From positions 1,054,001 to 1,118,000 of the forward strand of contig NZ_JALKAN010000002.1 of NCBI RefSeq assembly GCF_023015965.1: a stretch of DNA of 64,000 nt, in the 5' to 3' direction. The DNA is from Allomuricauda sp. F6463D (lineage in GTDB: Bacteria; Bacteroidota; Bacteroidia; Flavobacteriales; Flavobacteriaceae). The notes beneath the pieces were generated by a model, which saw only the letters and a list, made by a program, of their open reading frames with translations, had not been told where the DNA came from and did not search any database. Shown piece after piece: positions 26,869 to 36,204 of this stretch. Both the position numbers and the translations under genes were made by a program. Each line of letters begins with the position of its first letter. The first letter of the stretch is position 1.

Positions 26869-27597
26869 ATGAATTTCTCTAATATTTTGGAAAGAATTAA
26901 GCTGAGTTCCCCAGTGGAGTTCGGAACTGTGTTCAATAACTCTGTTGAGCTGTTCAAAAAAGTTTGGCTTCAAGGGTTCCTTACCCTTGTATTTACCTTT
27001 GCGGCCATCTTACCTTTTTATTTGTTGATATACCTCCCAATGATTATCATGGGAATAAGCAATCCAGATGTCTTTGAAAGTAATAACATGCCTCCGGCGT
27101 TTGCGGGATTGATGGCATTAATAATACCTATAGTTTTTGTAGGTGTTATGATGGTTGCTATTTGTTTGAATGCTGCTTTTTTGCGGATATGCAGAAAATA
27201 TGATCTGAACGAATCAGGAAAGGATGATTATTTTTTTTACTTTAAAAAAGCATATTTGACCAAAGCTCTTATCCTTTCCTTAATAATGATGGGTCTGACT
27301 ATGTTGGGACTACTGGCCTGTGGTCTGGGAAATATATATTTGGTCGTACCTATGTCATTGTTTCCTGCCTTTTTTGCTTTTGACAAAAAACTTACCGCCA
27401 TGGAAATAGTAAAAGCCAGTTTTGCGCTTGGAAATAAAAATTGGTTAATGATATTTCTATTGGTACTTGTAGCGGGGCTAGTCTCCCAACTTGGAGTTGT
27501 TTTGTGTTTGGTTGGAGTTTTATTTACCGCAATGTTCAGTAAAATACCTTTCTACTTTATTTATAAAGAGGCGGTGGGAATTTCCATGGATGTTTAA
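26869..27597 (+). CDS. Polytopic membrane protein of unknown function
   Basis: A 242-residue hydrophobic protein with about six predicted helices, grouped as 38-62, 80-107, 133-150, 150-175 and two C-terminal helices. The N-terminal amphipathic region reads VEFGTVFNNSVELFKKVWLQGF, a pattern also seen in the glycerophosphoryl diester phosphodiesterase-type membrane domain family (DUF7847/UPF0259-like). I do not recognise a specific function and there are no catalytic motifs. It is separated from topA by 131 bases that may hold the topA promoter, so it seems to be a single-gene unit. Confidence 0.8.
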   Translation: MNFSNILERIKLSSPVEFGTVFNNSVELFKKVWLQGFLTLVFTFAAILPFYLLIYLPMIIMGISNPDVFESNNMPPAFAGLMALIIPIVFVGVMMVAICLNAAFLRICRKYDLNESGKDDYFFYFKKAYLTKALILSLIMMGLTMLGLLACGLGNIYLVVPMSLFPAFFAFDKKLTAMEIVKASFALGNKNWLMIFLLVLVAGLVSQLGVVLCLVGVLFTAMFSKIPFYFIYKEAVGISMDV

Positions 27598-27728: not shown

Positions 27729-30218
27729 ATGCCAAAGAATTTAGTTATTGTAGAGTCCCCTGCCAAGGCTAAGACCATTGAACGATTTTTAGGAAAAGAT
27801 TTTCAAGTGGAGTCGAGTTTTGGTCATATCGCAGATCTTCCGTCCAAAGAACTTGGGGTAGATGTGGAAAATGATTTTAAGCCAAAATATACCGTTGACA
27901 AGGAAAAGAAAGCCTTGGTGAAAAAACTTCGGGACCTGGCAAAAAAAGCAGATATTATTTGGCTGGCGAGTGATGAAGACCGCGAAGGAGAAGCTATTTC
28001 TTGGCATTTGGCCGAAGAATTGAAATTGGATAAAAACAAGACCAAACGAATTGTTTTTAACTCCATTACCAAATCGGCAATTCAAAAAGCAATTGAAAAC
28101 CCGAGGGACATTAATTACAACTTGGTAAACGCACAACAAGCCCGTAGGGTGTTGGATCGCTTGGTGGGGTACGAACTCTCACCGGTTTTGTGGAAAAAGA
28201 TTAAACCCGGTCTTTCTGCAGGTCGTGTGCAATCTGTTGCAGTTCGACTTATTGTGGAGCGAGAACGGGAAATAGATGGTTTTACACCAGAAGCATCGTT
28301 CAGGGTTAAAGCGGAATTTAAAACAGATGGTGGAAACGCCTTTGCCGCCAAATTGAATAAATCTTTTCCTACTAAGGAGGCTGCTGAGAAATTTTTAAAA
28401 GAAAACATAGGTGCGGATTTTTCAGTTTCCGAACTGGCCAAAAAACCAGCTAAGAAATCTCCGGCTGCACCATTTACTACATCTACCTTGCAACAGGAAG
28501 CTTCAAGAAAACTTTATTTTTCGGTGAGTCGAACTATGCAAGTGGCACAGCGGTTGTATGAGGCAGGTCTTATTACCTATATGAGAACGGATAGTGTTAA
28601 CCTTTCTAAAGAAGCACTATCTGCGGCAAAGAATGCCATTGTGGAAAACTACGGCGAAAACTATAGTCAAACCAGAAATTTTACCGGAAAATCCAAAGGC
28701 GCCCAAGAAGCTCACGAAGCCATTCGTCCAACCGATATGAAATTACAGTCGCCACAGCTGGAGCGCGACCAGGAAAAATTGTATGAACTTATCTGGAAAC
28801 GTACCCTGGCCTCGCAAATGAGCGATGCCCAGTTGGAACGGACCAATGTTAGAATAGAAGCAAGCAGCCATAACGAAGAATTCACTGCAAACGGGGAAGT
28901 GGTTAAGTTTGATGGTTTCTTAAAAGTATACTTGGAAGGAACCGATGATGAAGAGGGTAGTGAGGAACAAGAAGGAATGCTACCGGCAATGAGTGTTGGG
29001 GAGCCACTTCAAAATGTGTTCATATCAGCGACCGAGCGATTTACCCGGCCACCTTACCGTTATTCTGAAGCCTCTTTGGTGAAGAAACTTGAAGAATTGG
29101 GCATTGGCCGACCTTCCACCTACGCACCAACAATCTCCACTATCCAAAACAGGGGTTATGTGGAAAAGGGTACCGTAGAAGGTTCCGAACGTAAATATAT
29201 TCAGTTGGTACTTGAAAACGATAAAGTTTCAGATAAACAATTGACCGAAATGGTGGGGTCAGAGAAGGGAAAAATTGTCCCGACCGATATTGGGATGATC
29301 GTAAACGATTTTTTGGTGACCCATTTCACTCAAATTTTGGATTATAATTTTACTGCTCAAGTAGAAGGAGATTTTGATGAGATAGCCTCGGGAGATGAAG
29401 ATTGGCAAGAAATGATGAAAAATTTCTACAAAGATTTTCATCCCAACGTTTTGGAAGTACAAGAAAATGCTGAACGTGCCAGTGGTGAACGTATATTGGG
29501 CACGGACCCAAAATCAGGACGACAGGTTTCCGTAAGATTGGGTCGTTTTGGACCAATGGTGCAAATTGGCACTGTGGACGATGAAGAAAAACCAGAGTTT
29601 GCGAGTTTACTTCCTGATCAATCATTAGGAACAATTACTTTTGATGAAGCGATGACGCTTTTCGAGCTACCTAGAAAGTTAGGGGTTTATGAAGGAGAAG
29701 AGGTCGAAGCAAATGTTGGGCGGTATGGTCCTTATGTGAGATTTGGCAAAAAATTTATTTCACTGGCCAAGGGCGAAAGCGCTTTCGATGTGGATATGGA
29801 TCGCGCCATAGAACTAATCCAAGAAAAGCAAAAGGCAGATGCGCCGATTGCGGCTTATGAAGGAAAGGATGTTACCAAAGGTAAAGGCAGGTTTGGTCCA
29901 TTTATCAAATGGGACGGTATGTTTATCAATGTGAACAAAAAATATGACTTTGATAATCTGTCCGAAGGGGATATTGCTGAATTGATCGAGGCCAAAAAGA
30001 AAAAGGAGGCCGAGAAATTGATTCAAGAATGGCCCGAAGAAAAAATTAGGATAGAAAAAGCCCGTTGGGGCAGACATAATATTATTAAAGGTAAGGTCAA
30101 AGTAGAGATTTCCAAAGATGTTGATGCAACAAAAGTAACTTTGGAAGAGGCGCAGGCCCTATTGGAAAAGAAATCACCAAAGAAAAAAGCCAAAACAAAA
30201 GCAAAAGCTAAGAAATAG
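27729..30218 (+). CDS. topA: DNA topoisomerase I
   Basis: Type IA topoisomerase that relaxes negative supercoils. The Toprim domain starts with VIVESPAKAKTIE (catalytic E9) and contains the acidic SDEDREGEA triad. The strand-cleaving tyrosine is Y284 in ITYMRTDS. Instead of the four-cysteine zinc fingers of E. coli TopA, the C-terminal third carries several repeats of the GRFGPMVQIG / GRYGPYVRFG / GRFGPFIKWD type and ends in a Lys/Ala-rich basic tail (SPKKKAKTKAKAKK), the usual Bacteroidetes form. At 829 residues it is complete. The arginase-fold gene follows after one base. Confidence 0.97.
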   Translation: MPKNLVIVESPAKAKTIERFLGKDFQVESSFGHIADLPSKELGVDVENDFKPKYTVDKEKKALVKKLRDLAKKADIIWLASDEDREGEAISWHLAEELKLDKNKTKRIVFNSITKSAIQKAIENPRDINYNLVNAQQARRVLDRLVGYELSPVLWKKIKPGLSAGRVQSVAVRLIVEREREIDGFTPEASFRVKAEFKTDGGNAFAAKLNKSFPTKEAAEKFLKENIGADFSVSELAKKPAKKSPAAPFTTSTLQQEASRKLYFSVSRTMQVAQRLYEAGLITYMRTDSVNLSKEALSAAKNAIVENYGENYSQTRNFTGKSKGAQEAHEAIRPTDMKLQSPQLERDQEKLYELIWKRTLASQMSDAQLERTNVRIEASSHNEEFTANGEVVKFDGFLKVYLEGTDDEEGSEEQEGMLPAMSVGEPLQNVFISATERFTRPPYRYSEASLVKKLEELGIGRPSTYAPTISTIQNRGYVEKGTVEGSERKYIQLVLENDKVSDKQLTEMVGSEKGKIVPTDIGMIVNDFLVTHFTQILDYNFTAQVEGDFDEIASGDEDWQEMMKNFYKDFHPNVLEVQENAERASGERILGTDPKSGRQVSVRLGRFGPMVQIGTVDDEEKPEFASLLPDQSLGTITFDEAMTLFELPRKLGVYEGEEVEANVGRYGPYVRFGKKFISLAKGESAFDVDMDRAIELIQEKQKADAPIAAYEGKDVTKGKGRFGPFIKWDGMFINVNKKYDFDNLSEGDIAELIEAKKKKEAEKLIQEWPEEKIRIEKARWGRHNIIKGKVKVEISKDVDATKVTLEEAQALLEKKSPKKKAKTKAKAKK

Positions 30219-30219
30219 T

Positions 30220-31377
30220 ATGGCCTTCGATTTTCTGGTTCCGGTCAAGGACAAAGTATTGGCGCATTCCGAATTGTTGCCAGAACAAGCATTGGGCAAA
30301 AACATCCATATGCACACAGAAAGGGATGGACTTCCGGTATTTGCTCATGCCGATGTAGCCATTTTTGGTGTAATGGAGTCCAGAAATGCATTTGAAAAAA
30401 AGCCTGAAAAACTTGATTTAGGCGAAGTTCGTATTCAACTCTACCGCTTAATGATGGGCAATTGGAATTCCAACATTATCGATATTGGTGATGTTGAAGA
30501 AGGAGATACAGTTGAAGACACCTATTTTGTAGTCAAGGAAATCGTGGCGGGACTTCTTGAAGAAAATATTATACCTATCGTATTGGGACTTACTCAAGAT
30601 ATTACGTTCCCAACATATCGTGCTTTTGATAAAATCAAGAACATGGTAAATCTTGTCTCCATTGATAGTCGTTTTGACTTTGGAGAGGACGATGAGCTCA
30701 TCTCATCACATTCCTACATGAGCAGGATAATTACGGATAAGCCTAACAATCTTTTTAATTTTTCCAATATTGGATACCAGAGTTATTTCAATGCCCAGGA
30801 AGAAAAGGATTTGATGGAGCGACTTTTTTTTGACGCATATCGGTTGGGTGAAATTGCAGCGAATATAGAACTGGCAGAACCAGTATTGCGCAGCAGCGAT
30901 ATTGTTAGCCTAGATTTACGTGCAGTACGGGCAAGTGAAATGGGAATGACCAAAAACTTTTCCCCGAACGGTTTTACCGGAAGGGAAATATGTGCCATTG
31001 CCCGTTATGCCGGTATAAGTGATAAAGTCTCTTTGTTTGGGATTTACGAAGGGGAAAATTCACATCAAACATTTCAAATGATTGCCCAGATCATTTGGTA
31101 TTTTATAGAGGGGCTGAGTTTTAGGATAAAAGAATACCCTAGCTCTAAGAATGAAGACTTCACTAAATTTACTGTACCCACGGACACGGAAGAACTTATC
31201 TTTTTTAAAAGTCATGTCACAGAACGCTGGTGGGTAGAAGTACCAACAATTTTAGTAGAACATACTAAAACAAATTCGGTGGCGTTATTACCTTGCACCG
31301 AAGAGGACTATCTGGATGCTTGCAACCAGACCATTCCTGAAAGGTGGTTCAAAGCTTATAGAAAAGGTTTGAACTAA
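30220..31377 (+). CDS. Arginase/agmatinase-fold protein with degenerate metal site (usually annotated formimidoylglutamase)
   Basis: A 385-residue member of the ureohydrolase superfamily by overall pattern, but the manganese-binding motifs are eroded. The GGDHS segment is LGLTQD (122-127, no histidine). The DxHxD segment is D149-S-R-F-D153 (histidine replaced by serine/arginine context). The SxDxDxxDP segment is S230-L-D232-L-R-A-V (second aspartate replaced by R234). Three of the six usual metal ligands are therefore missing, which argues against classic hydrolase activity. The start codon follows the topA stop by one base, so it is cotranscribed with topA, and gldK lies 121 bases downstream. 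A structural, regulatory or secretion-linked role is possible; the common name should not be taken as function. Confidence 0.82.
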   Translation: MAFDFLVPVKDKVLAHSELLPEQALGKNIHMHTERDGLPVFAHADVAIFGVMESRNAFEKKPEKLDLGEVRIQLYRLMMGNWNSNIIDIGDVEEGDTVEDTYFVVKEIVAGLLEENIIPIVLGLTQDITFPTYRAFDKIKNMVNLVSIDSRFDFGEDDELISSHSYMSRIITDKPNNLFNFSNIGYQSYFNAQEEKDLMERLFFDAYRLGEIAANIELAEPVLRSSDIVSLDLRAVRASEMGMTKNFSPNGFTGREICAIARYAGISDKVSLFGIYEGENSHQTFQMIAQIIWYFIEGLSFRIKEYPSSKNEDFTKFTVPTDTEELIFFKSHVTERWWVEVPTILVEHTKTNSVALLPCTEEDYLDACNQTIPERWFKAYRKGLN

Positions 31378-31498
31378 TTAAATTTATTTTTGACCATTAA
31401 TTGTGTTTGCACAATAATTTAATCAAAAATCAGTTTTGAGAGTAATGAATTTGTGTAGTACAGTTGTAAATCTTGAATCGAATAATTTAACCTAAAGT

Positions 31499-32875
31499 AT
31501 GAGAAAGCTATTCTTTTCATCTATAGCACTTGTTTTTTTGCTTACCAGTTGTGGCTCTAAATCAAGATCAAAAGGTGAACTAGTTGGGGTCCAGGGAAAA
31601 AAATGGCATCCAGAAAAGCCTTATGGGATGGAGCTGATTCCCCGTGGCGCATTTGTAATGGGTAAGGCCGAAGAGGATCAGGCAAAAGTATTGAACGCTC
31701 CCACAAGAACGGTTACCGTAAGGTCCTTTTATATGGATGATACGGAAATCACTAATAGTGAGTACCGCCAGTTTGTGGAGTGGGTCAAGGATTCCATTGT
31801 AAGGACAAGGTTGGCCATTTTGGCCGACGAGTTGGGCATTGGCCCGGAAGATGAAGGTATAGGTGAGTATGCCTTTAAGGATACCGATACAACTGAACTT
31901 TCGGCATACGATAAGTATATGCTTGATAATTATGCTGGTCTTGGAGAGACTGGATATGAAGGAAGGTCATTGAATAAGGATGTAGACCTTGTGTGGGATA
32001 CTTCCGAATATCCTGATGAGTATTACTCTGAGATAATGGATTCTATATACCTTCCAGAAGAAGAAAGTTACAATGGATTGAGAAGTGTTGATGTAACCAA
32101 AATCAAGTATAAGTACAGTTGGATGGATATCGAGGCGGCTGCCCGAGCAAGAACTGGTAACAGAAAGGATTTTATCAAGCAAGAAGAGCTTGAAATCTAT
32201 CCAGATACCACCGTATGGATTCGAGATTTTGAATATAGTTACAATGAGCCAATGCACAACGATTACTTTTGGCACGATGCTTACAGTGATTATCCTGTAG
32301 TAGGGGTAAACTGGATGCAGGCAAAAGCTTTCTGTAACTGGAGAACAAAATTTAAGAACGATGATCAAAAAAGTCGTGGAAAGCAGTTTGTTAACCAATT
32401 TAGATTGCCAACCGAAGCCGAATGGGAATATGCGGCCAGAGGTGGTATCGAAGGAGGTTCATATCCTTGGGGTGGTCCATATGTAATCAGTGATACAGGA
32501 TGTTTTATGGCCAACTTTAAACCACAACGTGGTGATTATGCAGCCGATGCGGCCTTGTATACGGTAGAGGCGAAATCTTTCGAGCCTAATGATTATAACC
32601 TCTATAATATGGCTGGAAACGTTTCAGAATGGACAAACTCAAGTTTTGACCCCGGCGCTTACGAATATTTGTCTACCATGAACCCGAACATCGGTTCACA
32701 GGATAATCAAAGAAAAGTAATCCGTGGAGGATCTTGGAAAGATGTAGCATATTTTCTTCAGGTAAGTACAAGAGATTATGAATACCAGGATTCCGCAAGA
32801 AGCTATATCGGATTTAGAACCGTTCAGGATTACATGGGAGAAGAAGATTCTACCGACGGAAGAAGTGGATTATAA
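31499..32875 (+). CDS. gldK: Gliding motility / type IX secretion lipoprotein GldK
   Basis: Outer-membrane lipoprotein that forms the periplasmic ring of the type IX secretion system together with GldN. The signal ends in lipobox LTSC (C18). The rest is a formylglycine-generating-enzyme/sulfatase-modifying-factor fold: ELIPRGAFVMGK, DDTEITNSEYRQFVEW, PVVGVNWMQAKAFCNWR, RLPTEAEWEYAARGG, YNMAGNVSEWTNS, VIRGGSWKD and SYIGFRTV. At 458 residues the length is normal. It is the first gene of gldK-gldL-gldM-gldN. Confidence 0.96.
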   Translation: MRKLFFSSIALVFLLTSCGSKSRSKGELVGVQGKKWHPEKPYGMELIPRGAFVMGKAEEDQAKVLNAPTRTVTVRSFYMDDTEITNSEYRQFVEWVKDSIVRTRLAILADELGIGPEDEGIGEYAFKDTDTTELSAYDKYMLDNYAGLGETGYEGRSLNKDVDLVWDTSEYPDEYYSEIMDSIYLPEEESYNGLRSVDVTKIKYKYSWMDIEAAARARTGNRKDFIKQEELEIYPDTTVWIRDFEYSYNEPMHNDYFWHDAYSDYPVVGVNWMQAKAFCNWRTKFKNDDQKSRGKQFVNQFRLPTEAEWEYAARGGIEGGSYPWGGPYVISDTGCFMANFKPQRGDYAADAALYTVEAKSFEPNDYNLYNMAGNVSEWTNSSFDPGAYEYLSTMNPNIGSQDNQRKVIRGGSWKDVAYFLQVSTRDYEYQDSARSYIGFRTVQDYMGEEDSTDGRSGL

Positions 32876-32960: not shown

Positions 32961-33629
32961 ATGGCGCAGTCAAAATCAACAAAAAAGCTATTTAATATGG
33001 CCTACGGGCTAGGAGCATCGGTAGTAATTATTGGTGCATTGTTCAAGATTCTTCACTGGGAAGTAGATCTTGGGTTTATGAAATTAGGAGGATCACTTCT
33101 TCTTGCTATTGGACTTATTACAGAAGCATTGATCTTTGCCATCTCTGCATTTGAACCAGTAGATGATGAATTCGATTGGTCTTTGGTATATCCGGAATTG
33201 GCCGGTGGTGAGGCGGATGCTTCTAGAAAACAAGAAGCTAAAGATGCTCAAGAAACTGAAGGACTACTTTCTAAAAAATTGGATAACCTTCTTAAAGAAG
33301 CAAAAATCGATTCTGATCTTTTTGCCAACTTGGGAGAAAGTATCAAAAGTTTTGAAGGTGCTGCCAAGAATATTACTCCAACTACGGACGCCATTCAGCA
33401 CACTAAAAAATACTCTGAGGAATTGTCTCATGCTGCAGCTCAAATGGAATCTTTGAACAGTTTGTACAAAGTTCAATTGGAAAGTGCTAGCAGACAAGCT
33501 TCCATAAACGAGGAAGTAGTTCAGAATGCAGGTGCTTTGAAAGACCAAATGGAGTCTTTGGCAACTAACCTTTCTTCTTTGAATGGAGTATACGGAGGTA
33601 TGCTTACTGCTATGGGCGGTAAAATCTAA
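32961..33629 (+). CDS. gldL: Type IX secretion motor protein GldL
   Basis: Inner-membrane stator protein that, with GldM, converts proton flow into the motion that drives type IX secretion and gliding. Two transmembrane helices lie near the N-terminus (about residues 13-31 and 40-64). The second carries a buried glutamate, E55 in GLITEALIF, which corresponds by position to the glutamate known to be essential for proton passage in Flavobacterium GldL. The remaining 150 residues form a cytoplasmic helical part. The 222-residue length and the position between gldK and gldM are typical. Confidence 0.96.
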   Translation: MAQSKSTKKLFNMAYGLGASVVIIGALFKILHWEVDLGFMKLGGSLLLAIGLITEALIFAISAFEPVDDEFDWSLVYPELAGGEADASRKQEAKDAQETEGLLSKKLDNLLKEAKIDSDLFANLGESIKSFEGAAKNITPTTDAIQHTKKYSEELSHAAAQMESLNSLYKVQLESASRQASINEEVVQNAGALKDQMESLATNLSSLNGVYGGMLTAMGGKI

Positions 33630-33694: not shown

Positions 33695-35275
33695 ATGGCA
33701 GGAGGAAAACAAACACCACGTCAGAAGATGATCAACCTTATGTATTTGATCTTCATAGCGATGTTGGCACTTAATATGAGCAAGGAAGTACTCGCAGCTT
33801 TCGGATTAATGAACGAAAAGCTCGAAACTTCCAACACTAACATGGACTCCAACAACACCAGTTTTATGGCCAGTTTGGAAACAAAAGCTAGTGAAAACAC
33901 GGAGGAGTATGGTGAACTATACCAAAATGCTCAACAGATAAAAGAACTTTCAGATGCTTATTATAGTTATTTGGAAGGGTTGAAAAAAGAGATGACCGCA
34001 GATTTGGAAGACCCAAAAGATTATGTGGTTATGGATAAGTCGGATTATTTGGACCAAAAATTCTGGCAAGGAGATAAATTGACTCCGGCCGGAGAAGAGT
34101 TCATGGGCTTCATTAACAACTATCGTGATGGCGTGATCAATGCATTGCCAGCAGATGAGTTTGAAAGTTTGAAATCGGCTGTAGATACCCGTTTTGCTAC
34201 CAATGATGGTAAAAAAGACGATGGTAAAGTAGAGACTAGGGATGGTACTCGCCAAGATTGGATCAACTATCATTACGAAGGATTTCCACTGGTAGCCTCT
34301 TTAACAAAGTTGACACAGTTGCAGGCAGATATCAAAACTACTGAGCAAGAGGTGCTTAAAACCCTTTTGGAAGGTGAGTTGACAGAAGCAGTATCCTTAA
34401 CAAATTTCGCCAGTGCATTGGATGCACCTAAAACTGCTTATTATGCAGGAGAAAAATATACAGGTAAGATTATTGTTAGCAAAACTGACAGGACTTCTAC
34501 TCCTGTAAAGGCAGAGTTGACTTTGGACGGAAGACCATTGACCGAAGGTAAGGACTACGAATTGGAAGCAGGAGGAATCAAAATGTTGATCAGTGCCGGT
34601 ACTCCAGGAGATCATACAATCACAGGAACCATGACGTACATGCAAGATGGCCAAGAGGTACCAGTAGAAGTGAACAACACTTTTGCAACCATCTCTATGC
34701 CAAATGCAGCAGTTATTTCTGCAGATAAGATGAACGTGGTTTACCGAGGTGTGGCCAATCCAATGACGATATCAATTCCAGGTATTCCTGATAACAAGGT
34801 GACAGCTTCAGCTTCTGGTTTAAGCAGAAGAAGTGGTAGTAACTATGTTATGAACCCAGGTACAGGTAGATCTGTGACCATTACAGCTTCTGGTACTTTG
34901 CCAGATGGTAAAGGAATCAGTACTAAGTCTGAGTTCCGTATTAAGGATATTCCAAGGCCAAGTGGTACCGTTCGTGGAGAATCCGGAAGCATTAAAATGC
35001 CTAGGAAAAACCTTGAAATTGCAACAGTTAGTGCTATGTTGGAAGACTTTGATTTTGACTTGAACCTTGCTGTAGCTGAATTCAAGTTCAAAGTACCAGG
35101 TCAACCTACCGTAGTAGTAAAAGGAAATAAATTGGATGCCAGAGCCAAATCCGCACTTAGAAGAGCGGGTAGAGGAGAGTCTGTGCAGATATTCGATATC
35201 CAAGCTTACATCACAAACAACAAGAGCTACAAGTTGAAAAAAGTATCTCCGGTTGTGGTTGAGCTTACAAACTAA
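33695..35275 (+). CDS. gldM: Type IX secretion motor protein GldM
   Basis: Bitopic protein whose single N-terminal helix (about residues 13-33, MINLMYLIFIAMLALNMSKEVLAAF) packs into the GldL pentamer and whose long periplasmic stalk reaches toward GldK/GldN. The helical first domain (about 35-225) is followed by beta-rich Ig-like domains (about 230-526), beginning at DAPKTAYYAGEKYTGKI. The start MAGGKQTPRQKMINLMYLI is characteristic. It follows gldL by 65 bases and precedes gldN by 26. Confidence 0.97.
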   Translation: MAGGKQTPRQKMINLMYLIFIAMLALNMSKEVLAAFGLMNEKLETSNTNMDSNNTSFMASLETKASENTEEYGELYQNAQQIKELSDAYYSYLEGLKKEMTADLEDPKDYVVMDKSDYLDQKFWQGDKLTPAGEEFMGFINNYRDGVINALPADEFESLKSAVDTRFATNDGKKDDGKVETRDGTRQDWINYHYEGFPLVASLTKLTQLQADIKTTEQEVLKTLLEGELTEAVSLTNFASALDAPKTAYYAGEKYTGKIIVSKTDRTSTPVKAELTLDGRPLTEGKDYELEAGGIKMLISAGTPGDHTITGTMTYMQDGQEVPVEVNNTFATISMPNAAVISADKMNVVYRGVANPMTISIPGIPDNKVTASASGLSRRSGSNYVMNPGTGRSVTITASGTLPDGKGISTKSEFRIKDIPRPSGTVRGESGSIKMPRKNLEIATVSAMLEDFDFDLNLAVAEFKFKVPGQPTVVVKGNKLDARAKSALRRAGRGESVQIFDIQAYITNNKSYKLKKVSPVVVELTN

Positions 35276-35301
35276 GAAGTATAAAAAGTATACAAGTGAT
35301 C

Positions 35302-36204
35302 ATGAATTGGAAAAACGCATTGTTAATTGGATTGTTGGGCATACTGCCTGTATCAATCATGGCACAGGCAAACATTTTAAATGCCAAGTTGCCCGAAGAT
35401 ATAGGTAAAAAAACCCAAGCTCAGATAGAGCAAGATGCCGATGAACCTTTAGAGTACGGTTATGTGGATGATAGGGATATCCTTTGGTCCAAGACCGTTT
35501 GGGAAATCGTTGATCTTGATGAGCGAGTTAACTTTCCATTGTATTACCCGACTGATACCGTAGGTATTGGGAAAGACAGAAGGTCGCTGTACCACGTTTT
35601 GATGAAGAACATCAGAAATGGAAACCTTACAGAGGTTTATGCAGACTCCTACTTTACTGAAAAGAGAAAGTTGGAAGACCTTTCGGCAACCTTGAGCAAA
35701 GTGGATACCACGGACCTTGGGTACGAACAAGTAAATGCTGGTGAGCAGGTTTCCCCTGAGTTTATTAACAAAAGGGATCTTACCGCAGCAGATATTGAAG
35801 AGTACCGTATAAAAGGAATTTGGTTTTTCGATAAGCGACAAGGAGAACTTAAATTTCGATTATTGGGAATTGCACCCGTTGCACCCGATGTAAACTTTAT
35901 CGATGATGAGTCTGTTGATCCAGGGCAGAACAAAGTAGAATTGTTCTGGGTGTGGTATCCTGCGGCGCGTAAAATTTTACACGATGCCAAAGTATACAAC
36001 CAACGTAACTCTGCAAGACCTATATCTTTTGATGCACTGTTAAATGCGCGTCGTTTCAATGGTGTTATCTACAAGGAAGAAAATGTTCACGAAGATCGTG
36101 AAATAAAAGACTACATTTTTGATAATGCATTGTTCCAGCTCTTGGAAGCTCAAAGAATCAAAGAGGATATAAGAGACAGGGAACAAGATATGTGGGCATA
36201 TTAA
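35302..36204 (+). CDS. gldN: Gliding motility / type IX secretion protein GldN
   Basis: Periplasmic partner of GldK in the outer-membrane-associated ring of the type IX secretion system. A signal peptide ends around residue 23 (SIMAQA). Recognisable segments are DDRDILWSKTVWEIVDLDERVNFPLYYP near the N-terminus and KVELFWVWYPAARKILHDAKVYNQRNSARPISFDALLNARRFNGVIYKEEN near the C-terminus. I chose the ATG at 35302 (300 residues) over the GTG two codons earlier. It is the last gene of the gld operon and is followed by a strong terminator. Confidence 0.95.
   Translation: MNWKNALLIGLLGILPVSIMAQANILNAKLPEDIGKKTQAQIEQDADEPLEYGYVDDRDILWSKTVWEIVDLDERVNFPLYYPTDTVGIGKDRRSLYHVLMKNIRNGNLTEVYADSYFTEKRKLEDLSATLSKVDTTDLGYEQVNAGEQVSPEFINKRDLTAADIEEYRIKGIWFFDKRQGELKFRLLGIAPVAPDVNFIDDESVDPGQNKVELFWVWYPAARKILHDAKVYNQRNSARPISFDALLNARRFNGVIYKEENVHEDREIKDYIFDNALFQLLEAQRIKEDIRDREQDMWAY

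Follow-up and report, generated by a model that had tools for sequence, protein, structure and literature searches.

Known ureohydrolases use two metals. Site A is built from H101, D124, D128 and D232, and site B from D124, H126, D232 and D234. Arginase-fold proteins that have lost metal ligands also occur. An arginase-like protein of Trypanosoma brucei, reportedly described by Hai et al. in 2015, is said to carry no manganese cluster and to have a function that is not known. Here we describe a protein, for which we coined the label PA, that is the 385-amino-acid product of an ORF at positions 30220-31377 of the window (the whole stretch of DNA that was analyzed, 64,000 nucleotides). PA resembles the T. 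brucei protein in its predicted arginase fold with lost metal ligands. However, the T. brucei protein is eukaryotic, whereas PA represents a bacterial, class-wide family that mostly retains three aspartates.

The closest described relative of PA, both by sequence profile and by structure, is the formimidoylglutamase HutG (B. subtilis 3m1r, T. cruzi 4mxr/2a0m), which has the same fold; the segment after D232 in PA resembles that of ligand-bearing relatives. In contrast to HutG, PA is without the two ligands used only by site B, carries a C-terminal extension, and scores far below the hutG cut-off. Passages of one paper (PMC11271267) state that arginase-family proteins without a binuclear center are known and that their functions are elusive, and present MetCb as the inactive subunit of metformin hydrolase, working with the catalytic MetCa. 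As depicted in those passages, MetCb is a bacterial arginase-family pseudoenzyme, as PA appears to be, but it works with its partner MetCa, whereas some genomes have PA as their sole Pfam Arginase protein. Over many families, PA also adjoins the porP-porKLMN/gldKLMN core operon of type IX secretion, which has an apparent separate promoter. The main-text portion of a type IX secretion review (PMC5445135) contains neither the word arginase nor the word topoisomerase. A passage of one genome paper (PMC11278836) mentions a formiminoglutamase standing alone, the other steps of histidine degradation being absent, and its identity with PA is only conceivable. The locus tags Fjoh_1852 and CHU_0169 were deduced from position.

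The PA gene lies on the + strand between topA and gldK. Ligand places are named after rat arginase, whose H101, D124, H126, D128, D232 and D234 we take to correspond to PA residues 126, 149, 151, 153, 232 and 234. The features referred to below are as follows:

27729..30218, + strand: topA, ending one base upstream of PA (TIGR01051, 714.3 bits against a cut-off of 456.4)
30220..31377, + strand: PA, with a ureohydrolase fold and changes at three of its six metal-ligand places, one of a family spread across the class (Pfam, AlphaFold2, alignment)
30583..30600, + strand: LGLTQD, PA residues 122-127, in the place of GGDHS/GGGHD; the H101 equivalent is Q126 (alignment)
30664..30678, + strand: DSRFD, PA residues 149-153, in the place of DxHxD; D149 and D153 are kept and the H126 equivalent is R151 (alignment)
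30841..30891, + strand: PA residues 208-224, with the family-specific R208 and R224 and, between them, E220, which is common to outside relatives (alignment)
30907..30927, + strand: SLDLRAV, PA residues 230-236, in the place of SxDxDxxD; D232 is kept and the D234 equivalent is R234 (alignment)
31138..31374, + strand: C-terminal extension, PA residues 307-385, with conserved W337, W338, C359, Y364 and W376 (alignment)
31378..31498, + strand: 121-bp gap between PA and gldK, with no porP
31499..32875, + strand: gldK, first gene of the gldKLMN core (TIGR03525, 606.9 bits against a cut-off of 350)
32961-33629, 33695-35275 and 35296-36204: gldL, gldM and gldN, downstream of gldK

The positions given in the initial annotation hold: the 385-codon ORF starts one base past the topA stop (30218) and gldK is next, from 31499. 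Upstream of topA, positions 26869-27597 encode a 242-amino-acid protein with no NCBIfam match at E ≤ 0.001.

PA belongs to the arginase superfamily by profile, matching Pfam Arginase (PF00491) at 41 bits against a curated cut-off of 22. It reaches only 39.3 bits against the NCBIfam hutG profile (TIGR01227), for which the equivalog cut-off is 229.15. AlphaFold2, run with a 40-sequence alignment, returned a model of moderate confidence (pTM 0.71, mean pLDDT 65.3). The best Foldseek match of this model is T. cruzi formiminoglutamase (E 5.8e-10), and VIA-align against 2a0m, a T. cruzi protein of the arginase superfamily, gave a Z score of 22.9 and an rmsd of 3.4 over 236 aligned positions. As modeled, residues 21-303 of PA form an arginase-type alpha/beta fold. 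Such a fold had been proposed from the sequence alone, and both the profile match and the structure prediction bear it out. No N-terminal hydrophobic stretch was found in PA, the top 19-residue mean being 0.89 over the first 40 start positions. The window's genome encodes a second HutG away from the PA locus (L001:1501-2325; G000:C19:175013-175837), which scores 288.7 bits against the same TIGR01227 cut-off. The name formimidoylglutamase is not supported for PA, and the routine enzyme name it carries is probably wrong.

In PA, GLTQD starts at residue 123, DSRFD at 149 and SLDLRAV at 230, and the six ligand places together read QDRDDR, with three changed and three kept. The same places read HDHDDD in six of seven relatives outside the PA family (L212-L217 and the second HutG of the window's genome) and HDHNDD in the other one. 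Not one of 234 distinct PA members keeps all six ligands of the binuclear site. These members comprise 64 named relatives and 170 others (filtered at >150 bits and >300 residues; 13 are from the window's genus). Exactly three ligands are kept in 195, four in 12, and fewer in 27. The three that are changed in the window are all missing in 218 of the 234 members, while the other 16 retain one of them and none retains more than one; the three site A aspartates are all present in 206. Among the named relatives, Q126, D149, D153 and D232 are invariant and position 151 is always R (61) or K (3). Among the 170 others, Q126 is found in 137, D149 in 154, D153 in 151 and D232 in 159, with R or K at the H126 place in 84. 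Because the pattern holds across the family, the loss of ligands in PA is not a matter of chance.

Judged from these alignments, site B is without both of its unique ligands, the equivalents of H126 and D234, often with Arg or Lys instead. Site A mostly retains its three aspartates, plus a Gln, which is milder than complete loss. Gln126 alone proves little because Asn is tolerated at the first ligand place in two enzymes: B. subtilis formimidoylglutamase has N there in our alignment, and the title of PDB entry 4myn gives N114 for the native T. cruzi formiminoglutamase. Loss of the H126 and D234 equivalents is the stronger argument. The initial annotation had claimed that at least three ligands were gone; exactly three are changed (Q126, R151 and R234), the first of them mildly, and the comparison of relatives shows the pattern to be family-wide. 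Replacement of the lost ligands by shifted residues would contradict the pseudoenzyme reading, and the alignments show no residues that appear to do so. D127, next to Q126, was considered as a shifted ligand and rejected, since the outside relatives mostly have D there as well (GGGHD).

Several residues set the PA family apart from its relatives. R224, W293 and C359 occur in all 170 non-named members, W338 in 169, and R208, W337 and Y364 in 168. In six relatives from outside the class (L212-L217, the best 6 of the 26 matches listed there), none has R208 or R224 and one has W293. PA members are just as invariant at E220 and G251, yet these two residues are common to all six outside relatives. 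The C-terminal extension is absent from these six. Modeled alone, it folds into five strands and two helices (pTM 0.57), and a PDB fold search with this model gave no match better than E 0.45, which is not proof of a new fold.

At E ≤ 1e-8, the PA profile matches 235 of 247 genomes of the class, a few of them weakly. Among the 235, two matches are unconvincing (G077, 46 bits; G111, 43 bits), two are pieces at contig ends (G109 and G161), and one is broken (G073). Inner stop codons were seen in two PA relatives, G073:C1:921211-922308, which is split into three pieces, and G418:C1:60741-61877. In one order with repeated loss of gldK, 139 of 199 genomes have PA. A phylum sample searched at E ≤ 1e-15 yielded matches in 84 of 247 genomes; the 26 listed matches outside the class are all without the C-terminal extension and end by profile position 314, ahead of most of it. 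In a 57-taxon tree of the window's PA, 49 sampled members, L212-L217 and L001 (the second HutG), the PA members are monophyletic with a support of 0.893, which is not full. Relative to the window, PA has a median dN/dS of 0.019 (20 usable of 74), topA one of 0.021 (15 of 74) and gldK one of 0.023 (32 of 74); these values are rough because synonymous distances are large. A dN/dS of about 0.019 indicates that PA is functional.

The gene order topA-PA-[porP]-gldKLMN is conserved across many families. Considering only the 122 genomes with positions for both PA and gldK, we found PA immediately upstream of gldK on the same strand in 93, belonging to 31 families; the two genes are on different contigs in 24 of the others and far apart or reversed in 5. 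This count covers the class sample. Nine of the 93, those of the window's family, have a short PA-gldK gap, and in the remaining 84 one gene would fit. Pfam was run on five ORFs downstream of PA, one at a contig end and the other four located between PA and gldK, and all five are PorP/SprF. In 51 gldK-adjacent regions, including the window, topA directly precedes PA in 46, and PA is directly followed by porP in 43 and by gldK in 7 (50 in total); for 40 of these regions only the topA side is informative, because they were picked from the 93 gldK-adjacent genomes. Of the 12 PorP/SprF-type genes in the window's genome, none lies at the gldK operon, whereas most other sampled families have one before gldK.

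Where PA lies apart from gldK, the association with topA depends on the sample. The order sample has topA immediately upstream of PA in 15 of 20 regions and one gene off in one more. In the class sample, topA is within three genes in only 3 of 20 regions, 18 of which have PA apart from gldK, with G034 and G016, in which the region holds no gldK, making up the rest. A set of ten regions with PA apart from gldK has topA in two, one of them (L167) at a contig edge.

Spacing sets the two sides of PA apart. The topA-PA gap has a median of 14.5 bp (n=46) and is 50 bp or less in 33 of 46 regions; the PA-porP gap has a median of 142 bp (n=43) and is 50 bp or less in none of 43. The motif TTTAGC occurs in 23 of 43 PA-porP gaps (regions L158-L166 and L277-L311; shuffles gave a mean of 1.9 and a maximum of 6), an enrichment that is post hoc because the motif was chosen after inspecting these gaps. 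Its median position is 55 bp before porP (range 15-350). Elsewhere it was found in 1 of 7 PA-gldK gaps (the window's type, without porP), 1 of 44 topA-PA gaps, 1 of 42 porP-gldK gaps, 1 of 51 gldK-gldL gaps and 0 of 51 gldL-gldM gaps; only the porP-gldK gap (median 123.5 bp) is of similar length among these controls. TAnnTTTG is only mildly above shuffles, in 13 of 50 PA-porP and PA-gldK gaps (mean 6.2, maximum 12 in shuffles). From its placement, TTTAGC seems to be a promoter-like element of the secretion genes, lying downstream of PA. It is likely that topA and PA are co-transcribed, and gldK is probably in a unit separate from PA.

It had been suggested that PA acts in secretion or gliding. 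In this case, PA would be a cytosolic accessory or regulator of the type IX system, with the cytosolic portion of the GldL motor as one conceivable target; we consider this unlikely. The position upstream of porP-gldKLMN in the 93 genomes speaks for it, and all 235 PA-positive class genomes match the GldK profile at E ≤ 1e-20 (242 of 247 genomes match overall, 236 exceed the cut-off, and the five without a match are all without PA), but some of the matches at this threshold may be GldJ-like. In the order sample, with gldK called at E ≤ 1e-60, 137 genomes have both genes, 2 have only PA, 49 only gldK and 11 neither (Fisher one-sided 4e-5), a test that ignores kinship; the association is confounded by descent, because 7 of the 11 genomes with neither share families (f39, f77, f144, f157 and f159) with gldK-positive members that are without PA. 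Rate covariation on a fixed tree between PA and gldK also favors a link in the 30-taxon test (0.44), and is 0.23 with 48 taxa. The PA-topA pair gives 0.46 with 48 taxa and 0.38 with 30, and the control pair topA-miaB gives 0.56 with 30; at neither size do the tests distinguish topA from gldK as the partner of PA. Against a secretion role stand the packing of PA on topA and the longer gap to porP or gldK, often with the promoter-like element, by which porP-gldK seemingly has its own promoter. Furthermore, 49 of 186 gldK-positive genomes in the one order have no PA-profile match at E ≤ 1e-8, so the type IX system does not require PA. PA was not found near porP-gldK in 11 such regions (L218-L227 and L229), two of which (L225 and L227) read topA-porP-gldK. 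Conversely, G429 keeps topA-PA and G454 has PA with no GldK match at E ≤ 1e-60 in either, although siblings of G454 have gldK. The link to type IX secretion is weaker than first supposed, and a role there is possible, not favored. What is well supported in the earlier pseudoenzyme proposal is that a routine enzyme name hides a conserved protein whose metal site is incomplete.

Alternatively, PA could still be an enzyme. As aligned, site A with its three aspartates and Gln could hold one metal, so catalysis by PA is conceivable. A single-metal hydrolase, or another activity, might use Q126, D149, D153 and D232, with Arg or Lys replacing metal B. The retention of these four residues in most of the 170 non-named members is consistent with this, as are the Asn at the first ligand place of real formimidoylglutamases and the still recognizably ureohydrolase-like segment after D232. 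However, known ureohydrolases use two metals, and the aspartates are also lost in distant PA members (fewer than three ligands remain in 27 of 234); we regard an enzymatic PA as improbable. Far less probable still is that PA contributes a non-catalytic subunit to a mixed ureohydrolase. MetCb, in the account given in passages of PMC11271267, is a precedent for it, and a six-ligand HutG is encoded elsewhere in the window's genome. Yet PA is the sole Pfam Arginase protein (E ≤ 0.01) in 8 of 12 genomes, a figure that is not a rate because the 12 were chosen as poor in such genes; G248, for which the PA position is not given, is probably alike, and G081, G114 and G095 have another. A reading of the ORF as a pseudogene in decay or as an artefact of annotation has almost no chance of being true. 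Nothing in the window's ORF points to it, and apart from the two relatives with inner stops the listed members are free of them; conservation, with the low dN/dS given above, refutes this reading.

The explanation that we prefer, giving it about an even chance, is that PA belongs to the topA unit and is a cytosolic protein with a binding or regulatory, non-hydrolytic role, with a single origin from a formimidoylglutamase-like enzyme. PA would have arisen once, no later than in the ancestor of the class, and would have lost binuclear metal hydrolysis; the site B ligands are gone and the site A aspartates mostly kept. The family has also gained its conserved residues and C-terminal extension, is under strong purifying selection and usually lies a few bases behind topA. 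Expressed as part of the topA transcription unit, PA would stay in the cytosol, would hydrolyze no guanidino or formimino group and would act by binding. Most likely its remodeled pocket would sense a small ligand or cation, with the signal passing to a protein partner via the C-terminal extension, and PA would not be a structural component of the type IX machinery. More speculatively, and rather doubtfully in our opinion, PA might be a class-wide regulator with one half-site plugged by Arg or Lys and the other serving as a sensor, coupling a signal from a metabolite or cation either to DNA topology or to gliding and secretion. This last idea draws on PA being made with topoisomerase I and lying next to the secretion motor genes.

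PA is under selection about as strong as that on topoisomerase I, class-wide, and its best match is the formimidoylglutamase family, whose chemistry it contradicts. With a wrong name for PA, genome models may assign histidine or arginine metabolism wrongly. If PA is a pseudoenzyme, its half-site would be a natural case for two-metal hydrolases turning into binders, and to our knowledge the family would be a very large arginase-fold one. PA also cautions against reading function from neighbors, since the secretion operon it adjoins is seemingly a separate unit.

In several families, PA is distant from both topA and gldK. A divergent gene just upstream of such PA genes recurs in five families, and in L239 it is two genes upstream (the regions are L168, L172, L173, L176, L233, L234, L239, L243 and L249). 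The three copies tested (L168, L172 and L176) are NAD-dependent epimerases. Another order has five families in which PA is followed by two recurrent genes in place of porP-gldK (L253, L255, L258, L259, L262 and L265). In L253, the genes after PA are ruvC, on the opposite strand, and a gene of the lysylphosphatidylglycerol-synthase type.
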